A stretch of DNA of 43,004 nt from the IMG/VR virus record IMGVR_UViG_3300042541_002680, positions 1 through 43,004 of that record; one strand, 5' to 3'. Of the stretch, positions 884 through 40,851 are shown piece after piece; within the stretch, counting starts at the first letter, position 1, and each line of letters begins with the position of its first letter. Below the pieces are notes generated by a model, which did not search any database, was not told the DNA's origin, and saw nothing but the letters and a program-made list of their open reading frames with translations. This DNA is from a virus. The position numbers and the translations under genes are program-made.

Positions 884-958
884 TGGTGCCGCCTGTTGGT
901 AACGCTCCAACCTAGTGTGCTCTTCAGGCACATGCTAATCTATCTCAGCTAAAGCGGC
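884..958 (-). tRNA. tRNA-Phe(GAA) with non-canonical D and T loops
   Basis: 75-nt cloverleaf. Acceptor GCCGCTT/AGGCGGC with encoded CCA; anticodon arm TGTGC-CTGAAGA-GCACA (GAA). The T stem GTTGG/CCAAC closes the loop AGCGTTA instead of TTCRANY, and the D loop lacks the GG pair. It belongs to the group also seen at 1875, 6439 and 8045. Stem geometry is complete, so a functional tRNA is likely. Confidence 0.82.
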
Positions 959-965
959 ATTAAAT

Positions 966-1841
966 TTACTTCAACACATTCTGCCTGTCAACTCGGATGT
1001 AATTCTCCAACTTTTGATTCAGATCTTGAACTTCCTGCTTAGATGCTACCTCAGTGGTAACAACTGCGACGGGCGGTTCAACTACGGGAGGCTCACAAGT
1101 TTCTCCAGCAGCTTCCATTGCAGCACGGATATCAGGATCCTGACGCATACGCTCACATGCAGCCTTGACCTTTCCCATCTGATACAGGGTGTTGACTTGC
1201 GTGATCATTACGCAGTTCTTGTCAACAGTAGTCTTACCACCGCTCAGGCCAACTACACCAGTCTGAATACCACCACTGACTGAACCCAAGCAGGTAATCT
1301 GACCAGCGGTTAGGTTAGGTGCAATGGCAGTAGCAACTGGAATCCTACGAGCCTCGTAAGTATCACCGCCGATGTTTACATCAGTAGTATTACCTTGCGA
1401 AGCAACATGATTCTGATTACTTGAGTTACCACTGTTCGCAACAGACTGAGTCTGTGCCTGATCCTGCGCCTGATGCTGACCCTGCTTCTGCGAATTAGCA
1501 ACATCAAGATGGTTGTCTGCACTACTGTGGCTAGCATTGTTTACATCATTCTTGATGACGTTGGTGTTCTTGCTCACGGCATTGCTGTTGGCAGTGTTCT
1601 TGTTTACGTTCGCATTAACATTCTTGTTGACATTTGCGTTAACGTTCTTGTTAGCATTTGCATTGATGTTCTTGTTTTCAACATCAATGTGATTGTCAAC
1701 GTGATTTCGAACAATGGTGCCGCACGCAGAAGTACGACAACCAACAGGATAATGTCCTCCTCCACCGTAACTACCACCTGCATAAACATTAGTGGTAGCC
1801 AACAGTGCTGCAACACCGACATAAATCACATTCTTATTCAT
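966..1841 (-). CDS. Asn-rich secreted/periplasmic protein
   Basis: 291 aa with a Sec-type signal peptide: MNKN, then a hydrophobic stretch to about residue 20, then an Ala-x-Ala-like NVYA site. The mature N-terminus is Gly/Tyr-rich. Residues ~45-105 are low-complexity repeats of the type NANVNKNVN, followed by a Gln/Ser-rich linker. The C-terminal ~120 residues hold four cysteines (in ITCLG, KNCVM, KAACERM and GETCEPP) that could form disulphides, then a Pro/Val stretch and a short helix. Export to the periplasm or outer surface is inferred from the signal peptide. The function is unknown; a virion-associated or host-surface role is possible. It sits between tRNA-Phe and tRNA-Lys. Confidence 0.75.
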   Translation of the reverse strand: MNKNVIYVGVAALLATTNVYAGGSYGGGGHYPVGCRTSACGTIVRNHVDNHIDVENKNINANANKNVNANVNKNVNANVNKNTANSNAVSKNTNVIKNDVNNASHSSADNHLDVANSQKQGQHQAQDQAQTQSVANSGNSSNQNHVASQGNTTDVNIGGDTYEARRIPVATAIAPNLTAGQITCLGSVSGGIQTGVVGLSGGKTTVDKNCVMITQVNTLYQMGKVKAACERMRQDPDIRAAMEAAGETCEPPVVEPPVAVVTTEVASKQEVQDLNQKLENYIRVDRQNVLK

Positions 1842-1874
1842 AAAATCCCCTAATATATTTGTAATATCAATGAT

Positions 1875-1948
1875 TGGTAGGCCCGGAAGGTACCGCCCCT
1901 TCTTTTATGGGTTAAAAGCCCATTACATCACTTTAATGTTTCGAGCCC
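1875..1948 (-). tRNA. tRNA-Lys(UUU) with non-canonical D and T loops
   Basis: 74-nt cloverleaf with encoded CCA. Acceptor GGGCTCG/CGGGCCT, anticodon arm ATGGG-CTTTTAA-CCCAT. D arm ACAT-TAAAGTG-ATGT, and T arm GAAGG-GGCGGTA-CCTTC. Positions 8-9 are AA rather than the usual U8. D and T loops match those of the tRNA-Trp at 8045. Confidence 0.78.
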
Positions 1949-1967
1949 ACTTTTATCGAACACAGCT

Positions 1968-1996
1968 AGAATAGCAAAAAGTAATGAGAAATGCAA
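1968..1996 (-). promoter_or_regulatory. Candidate sigma-70 promoter
   Basis: On the minus strand TTGCAT (1991-1996), a 17-nt spacer and TATTCT (1968-1973) lie about 20 nt upstream of tRNA-Lys(UUU). It could drive this tRNA and the secreted-protein gene. The -10 match is only moderate. Confidence 0.45.
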
Positions 1997-2024
1997 GAAA
2001 AAAATGCTCTCTCAGAAAACAACG

Positions 2025-3026
2025 TTATGTTAATGTTAAATGTGTGACAAACTGTCTTGCTGAATTAGCCCATGTTACATCTTGAACGGTCTGTGCTGCC
2101 TGTTTTCTATCCAATGAAAGACATTGTAGTGTGGCAATTTCTAAATCGCTATTCGTGCTGCCGTTTATGCCTTCTATTATCTGATCTATCGGTCCAGTAA
2201 CCGGATAAGCAGCTACCGGTGTTCCGCAAGCCATTGCTTCCAATACCACCAATCCAAAAGTGTCGGTTTTGCTGGGAAATATCATGACATCTGCATTTTG
2301 ATAATAAGACGCCAGTTCAGCCCCAAACTTGTATCCTACGAAATCTATCTTGGGGTACTTGGCTGCAAGTCGAGCTTTCTCAGGACCATCACCTACTACA
2401 ATCTTTCTAGTTTGATGACCCGCAAGTTCTAACTGACAGAACGCTTCGATGTTCTTTTCTTTGCTAACTCGCCCCACAAACAACAGCGTGATAACATCGC
2501 GCCTAGTTCGATCTTGAAATGCAAAGTGTCTATCACAGCCTTTGCCTAATACTCTAGCATGAGAATATCCTAACTCTTTGCGATTAGATTCAGAAGATAC
2601 CATGACAAACTTCGATCTCTTGTGAAACCAATCAAAATACCACTTCGTATACTTCAAGGGTATCCCAGTTATCTTTTCTATAAATTCTGGAAACTTGGTA
2701 TGATAAGCGGTGGTATAGGCTTTTCCTAATCTGTCCAAAACTCGCTTGGCTTGTAATCCTAGAGGTCCCTCTGTAGCAATGTGTACGATCATCGAATCAT
2801 TCATACCCTCGTCTTGAAGAATTCTCTTCATCTTTTTCTTGCTGCATAGAGATAGGGAGATCTCAGGATAAAAAGGCGCACTCAGTGTCCTAAACATTCC
2901 TGGATGTATCACAGTTACCGAATAATTTTCTGGCAGATGCGAAAGTAGATTCGCATAGGTTGTGACTACACCATTTACCTGAGGGTGCCAAGCATCTGTG
3001 ATTAAGATGATTTTTGGGCTAACCAA
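2025..3026 (-). CDS. agt: GT4 glycosyltransferase, Agt-like (diacylglycerol glycosylation)
   Basis: About 333-aa GT-B fold glycosyltransferase of family GT4. The N-terminal Rossmann half has ILITDAWHPQVNGVVTT; the middle has HIATEGPLG and YHTKFPE; the C-terminal nucleotide-sugar site has VVGDGPE, FPSKTDTFGLVVLEAMACG with the EX7E pattern, and AAYPVTGP. From memory this matches the lipid glycosyltransferases paired with PlcP in marine bacteria, which add sugar to diacylglycerol at the inner membrane. I favour the TTG at 3024-3026 because GGGAG precedes it by 8 nt; a TTG at 3041 is the alternative. The gene overlaps the end of the upstream phosphoesterase gene, so translation is probably coupled. 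GT4 is firm; the lipid acceptor is inferred from sequence and the pairing. Confidence 0.82.
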   Translation of the reverse strand: MVSPKIILITDAWHPQVNGVVTTYANLLSHLPENYSVTVIHPGMFRTLSAPFYPEISLSLCSKKKMKRILQDEGMNDSMIVHIATEGPLGLQAKRVLDRLGKAYTTAYHTKFPEFIEKITGIPLKYTKWYFDWFHKRSKFVMVSSESNRKELGYSHARVLGKGCDRHFAFQDRTRRDVITLLFVGRVSKEKNIEAFCQLELAGHQTRKIVVGDGPEKARLAAKYPKIDFVGYKFGAELASYYQNADVMIFPSKTDTFGLVVLEAMACGTPVAAYPVTGPIDQIIEGINGSTNSDLEIATLQCLSLDRKQAAQTVQDVTWANSARQFVTHLTLT

Positions 3027-3754
3027 TTGATAATCTCCCAACGTCCATCGTAATGTTCAACAAGTGCAGTGCAGCTTTCTACCCAATCTCCGTCGTTCAT
3101 ATAAACCGTGTCGTTTATAATCTTGATATCTGCATGATGCACATGACCACAGATAACACCATCAACTTTTTTTCTTTTGCAATAGTCAACAAGCAATAAT
3201 TCGTAATCGCTAAGATAACTGAGTGCTTGTTTGGTTTTGTATTTCAAATAGGCACTTAGACTCCAGTATTTCATACCAAAAAGATTTCGAACTTTTTGTA
3301 ACCAATGATTGACTTCTAGTAACCAATTATAGAGTACATCACCTACATGATAGAGGATCTTAAGCTTGATTCTAATCACAGTGTCAAACACATCGCCGTG
3401 TATCACCATATAAGTTTTGCCATCTAGCGCAGTGTAGCGATAGGTATTACATAATTCTATATTACCAAAATGAACTCCGAAAGGTATCAAACCTCGTAAA
3501 GCCTCATCATGATTGCCTGCTATGTAGATTACATTGGTGCCGCGTTTAGCTGCGGTAAGTATTCTACGAATGACATTGGTATGACTCTGAGGCCAGAAAA
3601 ACTTTCTACTTAGGCGCCATCCATCTATGATATCGCCCACTAAGAATAGATTTTCGCTGGCACTATGTTTGAGAAAATCGCAAAGTATGTCAGCTTTGCA
3701 GCCCTTGCTGCCTAGATGAATATCTGAGATAAAAATTGATTTATATTTCTTCAT
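3002..3754 (-). CDS. plcP: PlcP/LpxH-like metallophosphoesterase
   Basis: 250-aa calcineurin-like phosphoesterase with the complete dinuclear metal motif set: D11-x-H13 (FISDIHLG), G40-D41 with IDGW, N81-H82-D83 (AGNHD), H119 in VIHGD, and GHVHH in the C-terminal third. The GDIIDGWRL, YWSLS and GDWVESCTA blocks resemble the PlcP branch of the LpxH-like family as I recall it. PlcP is a Mn-dependent phospholipase C that releases diacylglycerol from phospholipids when phosphate is short. The overlapping downstream GT4 gene supports PlcP over a true lipid-A LpxH. A GATAAATA late-type promoter lies 17 nt upstream of the ATG. Metallophosphoesterase is firm; PlcP activity is a strong inference. Confidence 0.85.
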   Translation of the reverse strand: MKKYKSIFISDIHLGSKGCKADILCDFLKHSASENLFLVGDIIDGWRLSRKFFWPQSHTNVIRRILTAAKRGTNVIYIAGNHDEALRGLIPFGVHFGNIELCNTYRYTALDGKTYMVIHGDVFDTVIRIKLKILYHVGDVLYNWLLEVNHWLQKVRNLFGMKYWSLSAYLKYKTKQALSYLSDYELLLVDYCKRKKVDGVICGHVHHADIKIINDTVYMNDGDWVESCTALVEHYDGRWEIINWLAQKSS

Positions 3755-3770
3755 AGTAATCTCAGATCAC

Positions 3771-3778
3771 TATTTATC
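3771..3778 (-). promoter_or_regulatory. T4-type late promoter (GATAAATA) for plcP-agt
   Basis: The minus-strand octamer GATAAATA matches the T4 late consensus TATAAATA except at position 1. It lies 17 nt upstream of the plcP start codon. Confidence 0.55.
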
Positions 3779-3790
3779 TTAAGAAAATGA

Positions 3791-4030
3791 CTAGATGTCT
3801 TTCAATCGTTTATCATAAGCGCGAAGTGCGGCGTGTTCAACCTTTTCTTCATCCAGTTTAAATTGAGTCTGGATTTCCTTCATGGCCGCAAAGAGCACTC
3901 CCAATTGATGTTCAAGAGCAGTTTTTGTCTTGCTCAAATGCAACGCATTCACATGATTCGCACATACTGTTGCCAAACGATTGCTCTCTTCCATCAGAAA
4001 TACTAGAGCTTGCTGCTTACTATCTAACAT
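3791..4030 (-). CDS. Small hypothetical protein, 79 aa
   Basis: 79-aa, mainly alpha-helical protein, rich in Ala, Leu and charged residues, with no signal peptide. I chose the ATG at 4028-4030 because it has a strong AGGAG 6 nt upstream; the longer open frame would run through tRNA-Gly(UCC). The helical heptad-like C-terminus could oligomerise. It is not recognised from any family and no role can be given. It lies between plcP and tRNA-Gly. Confidence 0.7.
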   Translation of the reverse strand: MLDSKQQALVFLMEESNRLATVCANHVNALHLSKTKTALEHQLGVLFAAMKEIQTQFKLDEEKVEHAALRAYDKRLKDI

Positions 4031-4048
4031 ATATTCTCCTAAAAATAA

Positions 4049-4122
4049 TGGAGCGGGATAACGGAATCGAACCGTTGACAAGAGTTTGGAAAACTCTAGT
4101 TTTACCATTAAACTAATCCCGC
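4049..4122 (-). tRNA. tRNA-Gly(UCC)
   Basis: Acceptor GCGGGAT/ATCCCGC, anticodon arm AGAGT-TTTCCAA-ACTCT, canonical T loop TTCGATT, encoded CCA. Confidence 0.94.
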
Positions 4123-4134
4123 ATTTTTTTGACT

Positions 4135-4196
4135 GTAACACATTCAAGTCGATCTGTCAACTGCTATGCTTGATCTACTGACTGAGCTAAATGGGC
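4135..4196 (-). pseudogene. Degenerate tRNA-like remnant
   Basis: The 5' part reads like a normal tRNA (GCCCATT, then TA, then a GCTCAGTCAGTAGA D-arm-like stretch). However, no matching 3' acceptor strand, T arm or CCA follows before tRNA-Gly, and the putative anticodon loop lacks U33. It is probably a decayed tRNA. Confidence 0.45.
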
Positions 4197-4202
4197 ATAA
4201 TT

Positions 4203-4278
4203 TGGCGACCCGTGGGGAATTCGAATCCCCGATTTCCTGCGTGACAGGCAGGCGTCTTAACCGCTCGACTAACGGGCC
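4203..4278 (-). tRNA. tRNA-Asp(GUC)
   Basis: Acceptor GGCCCGT/ACGGGTC, anticodon arm CCTGC-CTGTCAC-GCAGG, canonical D and T arms, encoded CCA. Confidence 0.94.
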
Positions 4279-4284
4279 TAAGTC

Positions 4285-4364
4285 TGGCGTGCCTGATAGG
4301 ATTCGAACCTACATGTAATCCAGTTACCTTTCTCTTCGTTCGTAGCGAAGGGGGATACAGACAC
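4285..4364 (-). tRNA. tRNA-Arg(ACG) apparently lacking a D arm
   Basis: Acceptor GTGTCTG/CAGGCAC with G-CCA and a canonical T arm (GTAGG-TTCGAAT-CCTAT). The perfect anticodon arm CTTCG-CTACGAA-CGAAG reads ACG. Only about 7 nt separate the acceptor from the anticodon stem, so there is no room for a D arm. The 21-nt variable region contains a small hairpin, GTAA-CTGGA-TTAC. Confidence 0.65.
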
Positions 4365-4368
4365 AGAA

Positions 4369-4740
4369 TCAAGGAAGTCCTAGCTTGAAATTCTTATATA
4401 CCATCACTCCCTTATGGGTGATCGATACATATTGAACAAATTTGATGAAGCGAGGATCTACATTTTGCTCTTGCATGTGATAGATCAATGCTGCATGTAC
4501 CACACTAGTAGCAACTCCCCATACGATGACATCTGTCTTACTAGGATGTCTACCTAGGATATGATTCTTTTCATAGAATCTATCTGGTTGCGAAGCTATC
4601 TTGTACGTCTGTACTACGTCTACTAGATGCAACGCTTGCCAGGCGTATTCTTCTTTAGGTAACTTTTTGAAAATATCGTCTGAAGCTTCTGCATTAATTG
4701 AGAATAGTGTCAACAAAAGAATTGTCATCATACGATTCAT
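4369..4740 (-). CDS. Small exported protein with signal peptide
   Basis: 123 aa beginning with a typical signal peptide (MNRMMTILLLTLFSINAEA), probably cleaved after the Ala-x-Ala at ~17-19. The mature domain has a DVVQT motif, an ExNHILGRHPS motif at ~57-67, and a hydrophobic segment IVWGVATSVVHAALI at ~72-86 that may insert in the membrane. The AGGAG ribosome-binding site is well placed before the ATG. Function is unknown; the pattern suggests an integral or periplasmic phage protein that acts on the envelope. It lies between tRNA-Arg and tRNA-Lys(CUU). Confidence 0.72.
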   Translation of the reverse strand: MNRMMTILLLTLFSINAEASDDIFKKLPKEEYAWQALHLVDVVQTYKIASQPDRFYEKNHILGRHPSKTDVIVWGVATSVVHAALIYHMQEQNVDPRFIKFVQYVSITHKGVMVYKNFKLGLP

Positions 4741-4756
4741 AAATTTCTCCTAAAAT

Positions 4757-4831
4757 TGGTAGGATGCCTGGGGGTCGAACCCAGATCGAACGGATTAAGA
4801 GTCCGGTGCATAACCGCTCTGCCAACATCCC
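4757..4831 (-). tRNA. tRNA-Lys(CUU)
   Basis: Acceptor GGGATGT/GCATCCT, anticodon loop CTCTTAA (CUU), canonical T loop TTCGACC, encoded CCA. Confidence 0.92.
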
Positions 4832-4992
4832 ATAATAAGTGTGGCAGGTGCGGTATGTTGCTCTAGGCTTTACAGTGCCAAAAGCATGCCCATGCTCCTT
4901 TTACTTTCCTTACCACGGTGCTTGATTGCCTTAAGAGGGCTTTTCTCGCAGTCAAGCCTGCGCCGAACTAACGTACTCGGAACCGTCGCGAA
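4832..4992. other. Non-coding spacer with unassigned RNA structure
   Basis: 161 nt between tRNA-Lys(CUU) and tRNA-Leu(CAA). It contains self-complementary segments, for example AGCATGCCCATGCT on the plus strand. No complete cloverleaf or credible ORF was found. It may hold another degenerate tRNA-like element. Confidence 0.35.
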
Positions 4993-5077
4993 TGGTGCCC
5001 CAGGAGGGACTTGAACCCCCACTCCTTTCGAAAGCGGATTTTGAGTCCGCCGCGTCTACCGATTCCACCACTGGGGC
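4993..5077 (-). tRNA. tRNA-Leu(CAA)
   Basis: Type II tRNA: acceptor GCCCCAG/CTGGGGC, anticodon arm GCGGA-CTCAAAA-TCCGC, variable arm, T loop TTCAAGT, encoded CCA. Confidence 0.94.
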
Positions 5078-5370
5078 GCAAAATAAAGAGGACATTTTTT
5101 CTGTAGTATGCCCTAAACTGCGGACTACATTTATTGATCGCCTGTCCTCGCGATATGGTTTAGCTTGGGACGCCTACACGCACATGGTACCACATGCTAT
5201 CGGATTTGTCTAACCCTTGCTCCTAGTTCAAGACGTTCTTGATCTTTGCTAGACGGCTACACCATAAGGTCACCCGCTGTCTGACACTTCACAATGTTTC
5301 GTCCCTACGGACTCATCAGAGACAGTAAAAATATATTACTTGATCTTAATTTCGAAGTCAAGAACTTTTT
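5078..5370. other. 293-nt non-coding stretch with structured segments
   Basis: No supported ORF. On the minus strand AGGACA/TGTCCT enclose an internal GTAGT/ACTAC stem in the 5089-5151 region, and a near-perfect palindrome sits around 5180-5197. Both resemble the tRNA-like array elsewhere in this locus, but no anticodon or T arm can be assigned. Confidence 0.35.
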
Positions 5371-5445
5371 TGGAGTTACGGACTGGATTTGCACCAGCAT
5401 ATGGAAGCTTTGCAGGCTTCTGCTTCACTGTTCAGCCACCGTAAC
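5371..5445 (-). tRNA. tRNA-Cys(GCA)
   Basis: Acceptor GTTACGG/CCGTAAC, anticodon arm GAAGC-CTGCAAA-GCTTC, T loop TGCAAAT (one change from canonical), encoded CCA. Confidence 0.88.
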
Positions 5446-5456
5446 ATCATATAAAT

Positions 5457-5531
5457 TGGTAGCGGGAGACGGAATTGCACCGCCGATCTTCAGGTTATGA
5501 GCCTGATGAGTTGCTACTTCTCCATCCCGCA
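5457..5531 (-). tRNA. tRNA-Met(CAU), possibly initiator-like
   Basis: Anticodon loop CTCATAA (CAU), T loop TGCAATT, encoded CCA. With A as discriminator, the first acceptor pair is T·T, followed by GCGGGA/TCCCGC. A mismatched 1:72 pair is an initiator-tRNA hallmark, but the three G:C pairs of an initiator anticodon stem are absent. A lysidine-type Ile tRNA is also possible. Confidence 0.8.
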
Positions 5532-5599
5532 AACTGTGAGAGTGACACCGTGAGGAATCGAAACTCTATCAGAGCATTTGGGTGCCTATCGAACTTAAA

Positions 5600-5675
5600 T
5601 GGTGGAGATGGACGGGATCGAACCGACGACATTTAGCTTGCAAAGCTAACGCTCTCCCAACTGAGCTACATCCCC
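5600..5675 (-). tRNA. tRNA-Ala(UGC)
   Basis: Fully canonical: acceptor GGGGATG, D arm GCTCAGTTGGGAGAGC, anticodon arm TTAGC-TTTGCAA-GCTAA, T loop TTCGATC, encoded CCA. Confidence 0.95.
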
Positions 5676-5685
5676 ATTTTTCAGA

Positions 5686-5898
5686 TCACTTATTTAGAGT
5701 GAACAACTTGCTCTGTTTAATTTCACTGAAAGCAGCTTCAGACATCTTCTGACCGAATGCAAACATTGCTTTAGTATAGGCACCTTGTGCCTCGGCAAAT
5801 ACTTCAATCTCACGCTTTACTGCATCGTTTGGTACGAATGAAGCGAAAGTCTTGGTTGCCTGAACAGAGTCGTTAACCCATGAATCTACTGTGTACAT
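5686..5898 (-). CDS. Small helical hypothetical protein, 70 aa
   Basis: 70-aa, mostly helical protein with a mid-region EIEVFAEAQGAYTKAMFAFGQKM and no signal peptide. The ATG at 5896-5898 follows AGGAG at a good distance, and a late-promoter-like GATAAATA lies ~23 nt upstream of it. A longer open frame upstream has no ribosome-binding site. The amphipathic pattern loosely recalls phasin-like proteins, but the similarity is too weak to name it. It is probably a small late protein of unknown function between tRNA-Ala and the GNAT gene. Confidence 0.68.
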   Translation of the reverse strand: MYTVDSWVNDSVQATKTFASFVPNDAVKREIEVFAEAQGAYTKAMFAFGQKMSEAAFSEIKQSKLFTLNK

Positions 5899-5921
5899 AA
5901 TAATTCTCCTGTGTAGACAGT

Positions 5922-5929
5922 TATTTATC
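5922..5929 (-). promoter_or_regulatory. T4-type late promoter (GATAAATA)
   Basis: Minus-strand GATAAATA, 23 nt upstream of the ATG of the 70-aa gene, which also has its own AGGAG. Confidence 0.55.
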
Positions 5930-5959
5930 TTGCACTGCATACAAAATAAGATTCGCTTT

Positions 5960-6020
5960 TTCGCTGCGTGGATGGTGCAGCTTGGATCTTTTTGAGATCT
6001 ACCACATGGGGAGCGGCGAA
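5960..6020 (-). ncRNA. Structured 61-nt RNA element, tRNA-like
   Basis: The ends TTCGCCGC/GCAGCGAA form 8 pairs on the minus strand, with an internal hairpin GATCT-CAAAA-AGATC. Shorter than a tRNA and without a T arm; function unknown. Confidence 0.4.
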
Positions 6021-6045
6021 CAAACTCTAGTGTACTAGGGGTAAA

Positions 6046-6414
6046 TTAAACAGGATTTGATCTAGCAAATGCTTTTCCTGCTGCGGACATATCACGTTCA
6101 TCTGAATAATGTTGCAACGGAATACCTTGCTTTCTTACGAAGTCAAACATAGCAGATGCTATACCTTTGCGACGATGATCGCTATGTATTTTGAGGTCAC
6201 CTATTTGTATCCTATTGTCCATTCCAGGACCAAACGGCAAATAACCAACTTCGTGATCGTTAATAAATGCGGTTACTTTGCCACTAACTGTATCATCATC
6301 TGGATAATACTTTTGTCTAAGACGTAAAGTTAACTTTAGTCCCTTAGATGTCACAACTGTATCTTCTATTGATAAAGATTGTTTCCAATTGTTCTCAATT
6401 TCAAATAGACGCAT
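6046..6414 (-). CDS. GNAT-family N-acetyltransferase
   Basis: About 122 aa with the GNAT acetyl-CoA binding motif A in the C-terminal half: LKIHSDHRRKGIASAMFDFV (R/Q-x-x-G-x-A type), preceded by the beta-strand IQIGDL. The family transfers an acetyl group from acetyl-CoA to an amine; the substrate here is unknown. I chose the ATG at 6412-6414. A longer frame would start with GTG inside the tRNA-Ile gene, whereas this ATG follows the late-promoter-like ACTAAATA by 4 nt, as at other genes in the window. It ends ~25 nt before the structured RNA at 5960-6020. Confidence 0.75.
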   Translation of the reverse strand: MRLFEIENNWKQSLSIEDTVVTSKGLKLTLRLRQKYYPDDDTVSGKVTAFINDHEVGYLPFGPGMDNRIQIGDLKIHSDHRRKGIASAMFDFVRKQGIPLQHYSDERDMSAAGKAFARSNPV

Positions 6415-6438
6415 ACTGTATTTAGTGTCACTGTAAAC

Positions 6439-6512
6439 TGGTGCCTCCTGGTGGTTACGCTCCACCGTATTCGCATTATCAGTACGATATTCTACTATTG
6501 AATTAAGGAGGC
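6439..6512 (-). tRNA. tRNA-Ile(GAU) with non-canonical D and T loops
   Basis: Complete 74-nt cloverleaf: acceptor GCCTCCT/AGGAGGC, D arm ATTC-AATAGTA-GAAT, anticodon arm TCGTA-CTGATAA-TGCGA (GAU), T arm GGTGG-AGCGTAA-CCACC, encoded CCA. The D loop has no GG and the T loop is not TTCRANY; same group as tRNA-Phe, -Lys(UUU) and -Trp. Confidence 0.8.
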
Positions 6513-6549
6513 GATTATGGAAGTATCGAAGTTCTCCTTTTAAAGTTTT

Positions 6550-6636
6550 CGGAAGGGGTGAGATTCGAACTCACGGTCCCCGTAAAGAGACGACAATTTT
6601 CAAGACTGTAGCAATAAACCGCTCTGCCACCCTTCC
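6550..6636 (-). tRNA. tRNA-Ser(UGA)
   Basis: Type II tRNA: acceptor GGAAGGG/CCCTTCC, anticodon arm ACAGT-CTTGAAA-ATTGT, long variable arm, T loop TTCGAAT. CCA is not encoded (the 3' end reads G-AAAA). Confidence 0.92.
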
Positions 6637-6642
6637 ATAAAA

Positions 6643-7026
6643 TTATTGTTTGTATTTGATATAGTTGTCATTCAATCTAAGTTCAGTTTTAACTTTAATT
6701 TCATTACTGGGTATGCAATATTTGTCTCCAGATTCAGTTACTATGAAGATAAAATCTGACTCAGTTGGATCAAAATTACTAATAACATTACCGGTACGAT
6801 TAGGACGTACTTTTTTTATTTGACACATATAAGTACCGTTTTTTTGAACTCTTGTTGTTTTCACTTGTACTTTTTTTAAGCCATCCATGTCAACAATCAA
6901 ATCATAAGATTGATTGTCGTTTAAAGGCAAACTTACAACAAGACCTTTAGATACAAAATATGATATGGCTAAAGCCAAACCAACCGACCCTTGAGTGACT
7001 GTGTTCATTCCATTAAAATTAAGCAT
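6643..7026 (-). CDS. PD-(D/E)XK nuclease, group I intron-associated endonuclease type
   Basis: About 127 aa. Visible motifs: an N-terminal helix QGSVGLALAISYFVSKGLVV, then SLPLNDNQSYDLIVD supplying the catalytic Asp, then KKVQVKTTR giving the QxK core, and a C-terminal FIFIVTESGDKYCIP strand region. This order fits the PDDEXK_5 (group I intron endonuclease) family, which makes metal-dependent DNA cuts. No group I intron is visible beside it, so it may be free-standing. I use the ATG at 7024-7026; a GTG three codons earlier is possible. The AATAAATA late-type promoter at 7052-7059 precedes it. Confidence 0.75.
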   Translation of the reverse strand: MLNFNGMNTVTQGSVGLALAISYFVSKGLVVSLPLNDNQSYDLIVDMDGLKKVQVKTTRVQKNGTYMCQIKKVRPNRTGNVISNFDPTESDFIFIVTESGDKYCIPSNEIKVKTELRLNDNYIKYKQ

Positions 7027-7426
7027 TTTCTTCACAAATAGTTTACTAAACTATTTATTAGCCTAAAATCTTCCATAAAAATATTCCCAGCAGATTGAGA
7101 GTATTGCCATATCCGTTTAAAAGCCATAGATGCTTTCTGTTGAAATATGTTTGCCACCACAGCAATTCTTCACTAGGAAGTTATATCGCAACAGAGTGTT
7201 TTTCCCTCGGCAATCAGGTCAGTTGGTTAGACTTCCTCGCTTTCGGACTCTCAAAGTTATTTAATCAAAAAAATAAGTGCGGTCTTTGCTGTGGCAGGTT
7301 AACCGCATACTAGCATACACGGACCACCGCGGCTAGTAACTGCCAGTTTGCTTCTTTATACAGGTCATAACTATTCCTGTAGAAGTTGATTAGCCTGTGT
7401 TACTTGCCATCACAGGTTTCTAGAAA
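7027..7426. other. 400-nt non-coding stretch with hairpins
   Basis: Beyond the late-type promoter (AATAAATA, 7052-7059) I see no credible gene. Self-complementary segments include CCTGTG/CACAGG near 7393-7416 and CTAGC/GCTAG and GGCAG/CTGCC pairs in 7290-7345. These resemble the tRNA-like elements elsewhere in the locus but give no full cloverleaf. Confidence 0.4.
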
Positions 7427-7744
7427 CTAGAGATACTTTTCTGCATTTTTGAGCAGATGCAAGATGTTTGCTTTACCCACAGGATTCATAGAATGAACTC
7501 CATAGTCAGGCAATTGCAGCTTGCGATCCATACAGAAATCTACCAAAAACTTAGCACAGTCATATCCAGTCTTTTCTTGAGACTGCATATCTGCATAATG
7601 CTCAAATGCCAAATCGTGGTCAAACGAAATGTATTTGGGGATTCCATAAGTTTTGATAGCATGAACAAATTCATCATAATTTCTAACGATGTGCCAATCA
7701 TCACCGACAGGCATTCTAACATCGTCCAAAAAAATCTTGTACAT
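7427..7744 (-). CDS. cREC-like (cyclic-phosphate-processing receiver domain) protein
   Basis: 105 aa. The N-terminus has KIFLDDVRMP and the centre has ISFDHDLAFEH, both acidic/His clusters of the cREC_REC family as I recall it. That family is predicted to act on cyclic phosphates at RNA ends in RNA-repair systems. I chose the ATG at 7742-7744 because GAGG precedes it; the longer frame begins inside a structured repeat. Its position inside a tRNA locus fits a role in handling cleaved tRNA ends, but that link is inference. Family call moderate, function predicted only. Confidence 0.65.
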   Translation of the reverse strand: MYKIFLDDVRMPVGDDWHIVRNYDEFVHAIKTYGIPKYISFDHDLAFEHYADMQSQEKTGYDCAKFLVDFCMDRKLQLPDYGVHSMNPVGKANILHLLKNAEKYL

Positions 7745-7768
7745 AAATTCCTCATTTTTTTCGAGACG

Positions 7769-7849
7769 ATGTTGAAACACACTCGGCAATGTGCTGAAAG
7801 TACCGCTTTATGATCTTTAATCGTTATGTTTTAGAATGTGTTCAATATG
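7769..7849 (-). repeat. Structured repeat type R1, copy 2
   Basis: A ~66-nt core nearly identical to 9559-9640 (five differences), enclosed by a long stem. It contains GAT-TAAAG-ATC and AAAG-CGGTA-CTTT hairpins. It ends immediately upstream of the cREC gene leader. Confidence 0.6.
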
Positions 7850-7952
7850 CCATATTGAAGAACACTGTACGGATTCGAACCGCATTGCCTGTAGTGGAAT
7901 CGAACCACTGAGGATATCTCCCCCATCTTCCAAATGCCAGTGTACTTCAATA
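7850..7952 (-). ncRNA. tRNA-like RNA on a 17-pair rod with two T-loop-like hairpins
   Basis: The minus-strand ends pair as an 11-bp stem plus ACACTG/CAGTGT. Inside are TGCGG-TTCGAAT-CCGTA, a canonical T arm, and AGTGG-TTCGATT-CCACT in the anticodon-arm position. If the latter is read as an anticodon loop it gives CGA, but it has T at 37 and looks like a second T arm. The outer stem shares its last bases with the CCA of the next element (7953). Confidence 0.5.
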
Positions 7953-8037
7953 TGGTGTCCCGCACAGGGAATTGAACCCTAGAACTAGTATTGCACTACC
8001 ACAAGGGTAGCAGGCGGACCGTCGCTCTTCTTGGGAC
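7953..8037 (-). ncRNA. tRNA-like RNA (T arm and CCA canonical, body atypical)
   Basis: 85 nt. GTCCC/GGGAC ends with A-CCA and a canonical T arm (TAGGG-TTCAATT-CCCTG). The internal hairpin CTACC-CTTGT-GGTAG has only 5 loop bases, so no normal anticodon can be read. Confidence 0.55.
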
Positions 8038-8044
8038 ATAAACT

Positions 8045-8118
8045 TGGCTTCCCACCACGGTACCGCCCCGCGTTCTTCAGTTTTGGAGACTGATACATCA
8101 CTTTAATGCTTGTGAGAA
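8045..8118 (-). tRNA. tRNA-Trp(CCA) with non-canonical D and T loops
   Basis: 74 nt: acceptor TTCTCAC/GTGGGAA, D arm GCAT-TAAAGTG-ATGT, anticodon arm TCAGT-CTCCAAA-ACTGA (CCA), T arm CGCGG-GGCGGTA-CCGTG, G discriminator and encoded CCA. D and T loops are identical to those of tRNA-Lys(UUU). Confidence 0.75.
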
Positions 8119-8124
8119 ATAAAT

Positions 8125-8259
8125 TGGAAGACTATAGCTGGAATCGAACCAACTTCTTTCATGATAGAGTTTCCCGTTGCAACAGGATTGACTCCTAACA
8201 TGAACGCATGATCCGAGTGTTCACTGGCCAGATCACACTACGCACATGCTGTATAGTCT
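8125..8259 (-). ncRNA. Oversized (135-nt) tRNA-like RNA
   Basis: Perfect 7-bp ends AGACTAT/ATAGTCT, T-CCA, and a canonical T arm GTTGG-TTCGATT-CCAGC. The body is ~95 nt with TGATC/GATCA and AGGA-GTCAA-TCCT stems. It could be an intron-containing tRNA or a tRNA-like RNA; no anticodon is clear. Confidence 0.5.
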
Positions 8260-8269
8260 ATAAAATAAG

Positions 8270-8373
8270 TGGAGTTGGGCTGGATTCGAACCAACACAAA
8301 TGCGACTCTCATAGCGTGGCCACGCTGTTAGAAAGGGGGGCTAACCACTTGCCCATTACGCACATCCGACTCC
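8270..8373 (-). ncRNA. tRNA-like RNA with canonical T arm (104 nt)
   Basis: GGAGTCGG/CCAACTCC ends (one mismatch) and T arm GTTGG-TTCGAAT-CCAGC. ATGTGCGTAATGG follows the acceptor, exactly as in the element at 8383. GTGCG/CGCAT pairs the D side with the variable side; GTTAG/CTAAC and AGCGT/ACGCT hairpins are inside. CCA is not encoded. Confidence 0.5.
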
Positions 8374-8382
8374 ATAAATGTA

Positions 8383-8468
8383 AGAGCAAGGTTGGATTCG
8401 AATCAACACTTGTGCAACTCTTGCGAGACACGCATATCCACAAATTGTCCATTACGCACATCTTGCTC
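8383..8468 (-). ncRNA. tRNA-like RNA with canonical T arm (86 nt)
   Basis: Acceptor GAGCAAG/CTTGCTC is identical to that of tRNA-Tyr. T arm GTTGA-TTCGAAT-CCAAC. TGTGC/GCACA joins the D side to the variable side, and the central hairpin TGCG-TGTCT-CGCA has a 5-nt loop. No CCA encoded. Confidence 0.5.
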
Positions 8469-8571
8469 CGTAAATAAATTTGTGAGTGTGACGCCTCCCT
8501 CATTCGTCACCATTTCACCCATGTACATGCTGGGTTAGAGGTACATAGTAATAGCAGATACTTGTCAGTTG

Positions 8572-39654: not shown

Positions 39655-40851
39655 TTATTGGAAGGTCAAATTTTGCACGGCTATTTCTCCGACGTAATCG
39701 GCAGCATTGCCGAAACTTGAGGCCGTGTTAGTGAGTTCGATGTAGCCGTAACGTGTCATGAAGCTTACGACTGGTTCGAAGGTGGATGGATCCAGTACAA
39801 CACCGCTTGACATCAATGGGATGTATGGGCAGTAGAACGCGGCAGCGTCTGTCTCAGATGAACCCTTGTAACCAACCAATACTGGTGTGGTGTCTGGGGC
39901 ATATGAGTCAACGAATACGCGCATTGCACCGTTCAAAGTACCAACGAACTTAGTGTTAGTTGGGGCTTCGAATGTACCTTCAGTTGTGCGAGCAAATGCT
40001 GAAGTTGTTGCTGACTGTAGAACAGTCAAAGCTGCTGAACTTACAACAGCCCAGTTACCAGCACCGCGACGAGTGCGCTGTGCGATCAAGTTAGCAACAC
40101 GGTTGATTAGAACAGCTAGAGCAGCGTGTTCGTCACCAACGTATGTGGCTGTACCTGAAACAGTAGCCTGGTTGTATGTGAATTCAGTTGCAGCAAGAGT
40201 GCGTAGTGACAGGAGAATTTCCTGGTCAATTTCAGCCGTGATTTCTTGTGCGAGAGCAGCCATAATTTCTGCTTCGACATCGATACCGTGCTGTGATTGC
40301 GCATCTTGTGCAGCTTCAAATGTCCAGCGAGCTTGCAACTTACGTGACTTGGCTTCAACAGCCTGACGTAGAATCTGAACGCTGATTTGCTTGCCGCCAT
40401 TGCCTTCAAGTGATGCAGTATCTGCACCAGTGTAGAAGTCAGATGATCCGACATCGCTCTTTGTGCGAGAATATGCCTGAGCAATCTTGAATGGGCTTAG
40501 AGCTTCTTCACCAGCAACAACAGAGGTCTGTGCTGCTGAATTGTCAGTCAATGAATTCGCATAGCGAACACGTAGTGTATGAATCTGACCAACTGGACCA
40601 GTCATTGGCTGAACGCCGACTAGTTCGTTAGCAATAACTGTTGGCATAACACGACGAATAACTGGCAGAATAACGCGATTTAGAGTTGCGATATTACCAG
40701 CAGTTGTTGTGCCTGCTGAAGATTCCTTCAGTAGTGCCTTACGTGTGTTCTCAAGAATCACACCCATCGTTGAACGACGATTGCCCTTTAAGCCTTCTAG
40801 TAGGGCTTCCCTGGTTTCGTCCCAACGGCTTTCTAATAGTACTTTTGACAT
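39655..40851 (-). CDS. Major capsid protein, gp23-like
   Basis: 398 aa. Position directly after gp21- and gp22-like genes and the block LNRVILPVIRRVMPTVIANELVGVQPM fit the T4 gp23 family (T4 gp23 is longer, 521 aa). A candidate gp21 cleavage site L-K-E at 41-43 follows an acidic/helical leader, as in T4, where the leader is removed during maturation. AGGAG precedes the ATG. Forms the capsid shell. The terminator follows. Confidence 0.9.
   Translation of the reverse strand: MSKVLLESRWDETREALLEGLKGNRRSTMGVILENTRKALLKESSAGTTTAGNIATLNRVILPVIRRVMPTVIANELVGVQPMTGPVGQIHTLRVRYANSLTDNSAAQTSVVAGEEALSPFKIAQAYSRTKSDVGSSDFYTGADTASLEGNGGKQISVQILRQAVEAKSRKLQARWTFEAAQDAQSQHGIDVEAEIMAALAQEITAEIDQEILLSLRTLAATEFTYNQATVSGTATYVGDEHAALAVLINRVANLIAQRTRRGAGNWAVVSSAALTVLQSATTSAFARTTEGTFEAPTNTKFVGTLNGAMRVFVDSYAPDTTPVLVGYKGSSETDAAAFYCPYIPLMSSGVVLDPSTFEPVVSFMTRYGYIELTNTASSFGNAADYVGEIAVQNLTFQ

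Follow-up and report, generated by a model that had tools for sequence, protein, structure and literature searches.

The contact between residues 18 and 55 is treated as near universal in transfer RNA (tRNA). In the canonical elbow (G18-Psi55 and G19-C56; Rfam RF00005, Psi being pseudouridine), residue 18 of the D loop inserts into the T loop between residues 57 and 58 and contacts residue 55 while residue 19 pairs with residue 56, and the outer face of the 19-56 pair serves as a recognition surface for ribosomal protein L5, the L1 stalk and RNase P (PMC4810234). Natural tRNAs without G18G19/TPsiC pairing are known, namely tRNA-Pyl and type II mitochondrial tRNAs, in which these motifs are wholly absent or the D loop is shortened (PMC7609411). 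The UGNRA T loops (lonepair triloops) of other RNAs, such as the thiamine pyrophosphate (TPP) and flavin mononucleotide (FMN) riboswitches, take up an adenosine from outside, which intercalates between positions 4 and 5 and touches the G at position 2 (PMC2258182), the two bases forming a trans sugar-edge/Hoogsteen pair (PMC11363276); in the TPP riboswitch, the ligand intercalates instead of the adenosine (PMC2258182, PMC11363276). Here we describe six tRNA genes with A18 and G55 in an array carried by the 43-kb linear IMG/VR virus record IMGVR_UViG_3300042541_002680 (43,004 nucleotides, all of which were analysed and are hereafter called the window). Unlike tRNA-Pyl and type II mitochondrial tRNAs, these tRNAs keep their loop sizes and G19-C56. 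Active suppressor tRNAs with G54-G58 in place of U54-A58 and with alternative 18:55 combinations were reportedly obtained from randomised D and T loops in the Steinberg laboratory (Zagryadskaya 2003, cited in PMC7912444), and the G54:G58 of the tRNA-Lys and tRNA-Trp described below resembles them. Those tRNAs came from laboratory selections, whereas the ones described here are natural, recurrent and of many isotypes.

Genes were called by a plain cloverleaf search of the window, with ARAGORN and the Rfam tRNA model (RF00005) run alongside. The four tRNAs singled out by a first-pass annotation were all recovered on the minus strand: tRNA-Phe(GAA) at 884..958 (D loop AGATAGAT, T loop AGCGTTA), tRNA-Lys(UUU) at 1875..1948, tRNA-Ile(GAU) at 6439..6512 (D loop AATAGTA, T loop AGCGTAA) and tRNA-Trp(CCA) at 8045..8118. 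Their T loops are of the NGCGNNA type, and tRNA-Lys and tRNA-Trp do share the D loop TAAAGTG and the T loop GGCGGTA, both as that annotation had claimed. Each of the four has fully paired acceptor (7/7), D (4/4), anticodon (5/5) and T (5/5) stems, a CCA end encoded in the DNA, and a 7-nucleotide anticodon loop with U33 and a purine at 37; residue 73 is A in tRNA-Phe and tRNA-Ile and G in tRNA-Trp. Eight perfect cloverleaves with CCA occur in the window against none in eight Markov shuffles of it, and chance cloverleaves are excluded for the four genes. ARAGORN detected none of them, while the Rfam model placed tRNA-Phe (39.6 bits) and tRNA-Ile (54.5 bits) above its gathering cut-off and missed tRNA-Lys and tRNA-Trp, which score below it. 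The tRNA-Phe gene is also present in four other loci (L089, L094, L095 and L098), and the tRNA-Lys gene is identical in the window and the same four.

When residues are numbered by alignment, tRNA-Lys and tRNA-Trp have the D loop TAA-AG-TG, tRNA-Ile has AAT-AG-TA and tRNA-Phe has AGAT-AG-AT, to be compared with AAT-GG-TA in the array's own tRNA-Gly. The GG of the D loop was thus not lost, as had been proposed, but has become A18-G19. The set also extends beyond the four to tRNA-Cys(GCA) at 5371..5445 (D loop AACAGTG, T loop TGCAAAT, U73) and tRNA-Met(CAU) at 5457..5531 (D loop AGTAGCA, T loop TGCAATT), both on the minus strand. All six have A in place of G18 and G in place of U55, and since all six retain G19 and C56, the outer elbow pair can form; the earlier statement that the canonical elbow cannot form consequently stands for G18-U55 and falls for G19-C56. 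Positions 54 and 58 vary: tRNA-Cys and tRNA-Met retain the bases of the canonical U54-A58 reverse Hoogsteen pair, tRNA-Phe and tRNA-Ile have A:U, and tRNA-Lys and tRNA-Trp have G:G. The last two also have positions 8 and 14 swapped (A8 and U14 instead of U8 and A14). The window tRNAs therefore share with canonical ones the cloverleaf, CCA, anticodon loop, G19-C56 and 7-nucleotide T loop, with A18 at the place of G18, and differ in having 18:55 as A:G rather than G:U, 54:58 often as A:U or G:G, no U55 and often no U54. The nine other intact tRNAs of the array (Leu, Gly, Asp, Lys-CUU, Leu, Ala, Glu, Tyr and Thr) keep G18/U55 and serve as internal controls. The tRNA-Met has an A11:U24 pair and an unpaired 1:72, and on these features we take it to be initiator-like. 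A18/G55 Met genes similar to it were seen in L133, L405, L113 and L161.

The pairing of the two substitutions holds well beyond the window. The first loci gave 384 distinct viral tRNAs. In the 375 of them that could be assigned, 18:55 is G:U in 309, A:G in 59 and G:C in 6, with one ambiguous. An enlarged set restricted to tRNAs in which none of the search patterns occurs holds 610 G18/U55 and 72 A18/G55 tRNAs (Fisher p of about 3e-91 for the coupling, a value that ignores relatedness), and inspection left at most one genuine A18/U55 tRNA (the tRNA-Phe of L319) and no clear G18/G55. Candidate exceptions were set aside as also readable as A18G19 (L141, L343), as G18A19 with U56 (L354, L370) or as tRNAs that are not intact (L281, L327). 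With an A18 D arm as sole bait in IMG/VR and the T loop read afterwards, 20 distinct cloverleaves had G55 and 4 had U55. Conversely, with an Ile anticodon and a G55 T loop as bait, A18G19 was read in all 26 distinct viral tRNA-Ile (window included), all of which have C56 and G19, and a search of the whole of IMG/VR for a G18 D arm with a G55 T loop returned a single match, a gene with a broken acceptor arm. Homologues with the same paired loop changes thus exist, and the earlier idea that the two loops changed jointly towards an alternative elbow is strongly supported, residues 18 and 55 covarying almost without exception in viral tRNAs. Because many other phages and some bacterial chromosomes show this joint change as well, the window genes are very probably working tRNAs rather than decaying genes. 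Judged from these sequence patterns, it is highly probable that they are functional phage tRNAs, which would be expressed, charged and used in translation, and in which A18:G55 would replace the inner pair G18:U55 while the outer G19-C56 is kept.

Other elbow states were met in the viral set, with 19:56 as A:U, C:G or perhaps U:A (L364 13234-13320, L314 9214-9287, L315 10459-10533 and L415 2086-2161), and one tRNA among these four loci, a tRNA-Leu, combines A18:G55 with C19:G56. Loss of the whole elbow was considered for the window tRNAs and ruled out, G19 and C56 being kept and 19:56 itself covarying elsewhere in the viral set.

We predict that A18 is most likely inserted between T-loop residues 57 and 58, as G18 is, and that its pairing with G55 would be of the sheared (trans sugar-edge/Hoogsteen) kind known from riboswitch UGNRA T loops, with residues 54 and 58 varying alongside as U:A, A:U or G:G. 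Such a geometry would leave intact both the L shape and the flat G19-C56 surface that the ribosome and RNase P make use of. Since position 2 of the UGNRA loop corresponds to residue 55 and the intercalating base to residue 18, A18-G55 would be the known UGNRA solution placed in a tRNA. The T loops of the window Cys (TGCAAAT) and Met (TGCAATT) match UGNRA exactly, and U1 and A5 of the motif are found in these two and in 48 of 76 AG-class viral tRNAs, and not in Phe, Lys, Ile and Trp. Unlike in the riboswitches, the adenosine comes here from the tRNA D loop, position 3 (C56) pairs with G19, and in four of the six T loops positions 1 and 5 are occupied by A:U or G:G. A full-text search for A18/G55 in tRNA returned nothing relevant, albeit with most subscription papers outside its scope, so that a prior description is possible.

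As the cause of this phage's richness in the altered state, we favour recurrent compensatory drift. Alternatively, the change may have been selected as freeing the tRNA from elbow modification by the host (2'-O-methylguanosine Gm18, 5-methyluridine m5U54 and Psi55; Gm18 and T-loop modifications are reviewed in PMC7912444), the A18-G55 contact being stable without it. U55 and G18 are gone in all six window tRNAs and U54 in four, so that the substrates of TruB and TrmH, and partly those of TrmA, are absent. The lack of these bases may help when modification is limiting. However, the sequence change entails such a loss even if modification played no part in its origin, simple compensatory drift would leave the same pattern, and most phage tRNAs keep the modifiable bases. 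Selection of this kind is accordingly a rather unlikely origin of the switch, and under compensatory drift relief from dependence on TrmA, TruB and TrmH would be a possible added benefit.

A further proposal is that the loops were selected to escape host tRNA nucleases or other elbow-reading host factors, phage tRNAs surviving the destruction of host tRNAs. Evasion of tRNA-targeting defences has been suggested for phage tRNAs (van den Berg 2023, PMC10264068), many factors read the elbow (PMC4810234), and the altered state is unusually frequent in the window array (6 of 15 intact tRNAs). Like the tRNAs of that study, those of the window are phage-encoded and differ from ordinary tRNAs at positions relevant to recognition. 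Yet the published evasion concerns the anticodon loop, D and T loops being unmentioned there (PMC10264068), whereas the window tRNAs are changed in the elbow and have anticodon loops that, taken by themselves, look ordinary. The nine other tRNAs of the array are still canonical and the outer G19-C56 face, which most factors touch, is unaltered.

The same state is moreover found in cellular genomes. In GTDB, an A18 D-arm pattern matched at least 116 stretches, of which 80 loci were read, yielding 66 readable cases; among the matches listed, 57 of these have G55 and 9 have U55, and A18/G55 occurs in tRNA-Phe of Mycoplasmataceae, Nomurabacteria, Zambryskibacteria and Bacillales/Erysipelotrichaceae and in tRNA-Thr of Saccharibacteria and Omnitrophota, with other cases besides. 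Metagenome-assembled genomes (MAGs) of the candidate phyla radiation (CPR) also carry A18/G55 in a chromosomal tRNA-Phe, and the Mycoplasmataceae MAG G040 carries such a gene within a run of ordinary tRNAs. Because the pair occurs in bacterial chromosomes (Mycoplasmataceae, CPR, Saccharibacteria, Bacillales), a purely anti-host role is argued against, and nuclease escape is in our judgement improbable. Evasion of modification or of tRNA-targeting nucleases, which the first-pass annotation had also suggested, thus found no support. A tRNA array in the bacterial assembly of Verrucomicrobium sp. BvORR106 (L215, ~1750-4460, NZ_BATR01000093.1), possibly a prophage or mobile element, also consists mostly of tRNAs with G55 and an A18-type D loop.

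The altered tRNAs could also descend from one altered lineage that changed anticodon repeatedly (tRNA remolding) and spread through arrays. With D and T loops masked, however, the nearest relative of 93 of 108 A18/G55 tRNAs is a canonical tRNA and not an A18/G55 tRNA of a different isotype (8 ties), and the window Trp, Ile and Met are each nearest to a canonical tRNA with the same anticodon. The stems of tRNA-Lys and tRNA-Trp, too, are very different. As the loop-masked tRNAs mostly sit nearest canonical ones, the comparison, limited by the shortness of the sequences, points to many separate joint 18:55 switches, and a single shared origin seems improbable. The identical loops of tRNA-Lys and tRNA-Trp may still reflect exchange between those two genes.

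Homologues finally show how the loops behave while the rest of the molecule changes. We aligned 25 gap-free tRNA-Ile, in which most of 54-62 and U33-A38 was set by the search pattern whereas the D loop, positions 8-9, A73 and CCA were free of it. Two-sided changes affect 18 of the 21 stem pairs, across all four stems, 97.3% of stem cells are paired (64% in shuffles, 36-42% in slid controls) and covariation reaches 0.895 against 0.229 when shuffled. Invariant in the alignment are T8, A9, A14, A15, A18, G19, 54-58 (largely imposed by the pattern), 60, A73 and CCA. Likewise, three distinct tRNA-Trp with TAAAGTG and GGCGGTA loops (window, L161/L093 and L160/L092) differ in their stems, which remain paired, and are identical in both loops. 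Since stems change with compensation while loops stay fixed, the loops are under constraint, which is the opposite of random decay. That these are pseudogenes whose loops drifted once function was lost is hence most implausible: although the array does hold real debris, in the form of tRNA-like pieces at 4285-4364 and 7857-8475 whose middles are broken, and ARAGORN misses the four genes, the stems are perfectly paired and change with compensation across homologues, A18G19 persists in the D loop, CCA, U33, purine 37 and plausible discriminator bases are retained, and the pair is fixed in a Mycoplasmataceae MAG (G040, which may be incomplete) in what is apparently its sole tRNA-Phe, no other GAA tRNA being among the 24 tRNAs found there.

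Besides ribonucleotide reductase genes and a prohead protease gene, the window carries the gene of a T4-type major head protein (39655-40851), which shares up to 95% identity with its counterparts on other environmental contigs and 65-67% with those of large phages such as Vibrio phage 2.275.O, Sinorhizobium phage Phosso and Pseudomonas phage Paride. The tRNA array lies between 795 and 9812 on the minus strand, with 15 intact tRNAs, and also contains a tRNA-Ser(UGA) found by ARAGORN (6549-6637). When compared by BLAST with annotated phages, the Trp and Ile genes of the window had no match, and no A18/G55 tRNA was found in the array stretches examined of Vibrio phage 2.275.O, Phosso and Paride.

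Whether A18-G55 constitutes a second evolutionarily stable elbow solution, reached independently many times by phage and some bacterial tRNAs and giving an L shape independent of Psi55, m5U54 and Gm18, is in our view evenly balanced. Several observations count against the interpretation developed here. D-loop classes were assigned by position rules, which leave a handful of loops ambiguous, and the T loops of Phe, Ile, Lys and Trp depart from strict UGNRA, their 54:58 being A:U or G:G. The coupling is not absolute in cells, the tRNA-Phe of Bacteroidales and a few others being A18/U55. Lastly, no A18/G55 tRNA was found in the arrays of close relatives whose capsid protein is up to 95% identical (G001), so the state is not required.

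Other RNA elements lie within or near such arrays. Three adjacent tRNA-like elements on the minus strand of the window (8126-8258, 8268-8372 and ~8386-8475) have matching acceptor strands, TTCGANT T arms and no ordinary middle, and carry ATGTGCGTARTG near the acceptor 5' strand, a sequence with 3 matches in the window against 0.45 expected. Degenerate tRNA-like sequences with intact T arms occur on the same strand at 4285-4364 and 7857-7970, the latter with two T arms in tandem. A hammerhead-ribozyme-like sequence, CTGATGAG...GACGAAAC, lies inside the array at 5291-5328 (minus strand); it scores 29.3 bits with the Rfam type III model, below the gathering score of 48.5. On a 283-kb viral contig, a GOLLD RNA (RF02032, 194.9 bits; L112 2958-3395, minus strand) adjoins a tRNA array.

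Circularly permuted tRNA-like RNAs were seen in tRNA arrays of L100, L102, L104, L112, L113, L121, L122, L126, L129, L132 and L147 (also L140 and L144), for example at ~415-585 on the plus strand of L113, and several of these loci are on contigs of 160-318 kb. In them, the T arm (G55) and acceptor 3' strand precede the acceptor 5' strand and the D arm (A18) by 11-115 nucleotides, and a hairpin that lengthens the acceptor stem links the two parts. A sequence of the type TTCAGCAA...GAAA..CC is common to eleven of them, and the outer stem (e.g., GGATAC/GTATCC) varies with compensation. No Rfam family matches these loci at the gathering threshold, and they possibly form an undescribed RNA class.

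Natural tRNAs with the A18-G55 elbow are widespread and badly under-annotated. ARAGORN missed 57 of 120 A18/G55 tRNAs, compared with 5 of 608 canonical ones in the same loci, and 23 of the 24 that have G54:G58. Because these tRNAs escape detection, counts of phage tRNAs are biased, as are the conclusions on codon use and tRNA-based counter-defence derived from them. A second state found in nature, with both residues switching together, also provides ready-made double mutants for studies of the 18-55 contact and of elbow modification, and for tRNA engineering.

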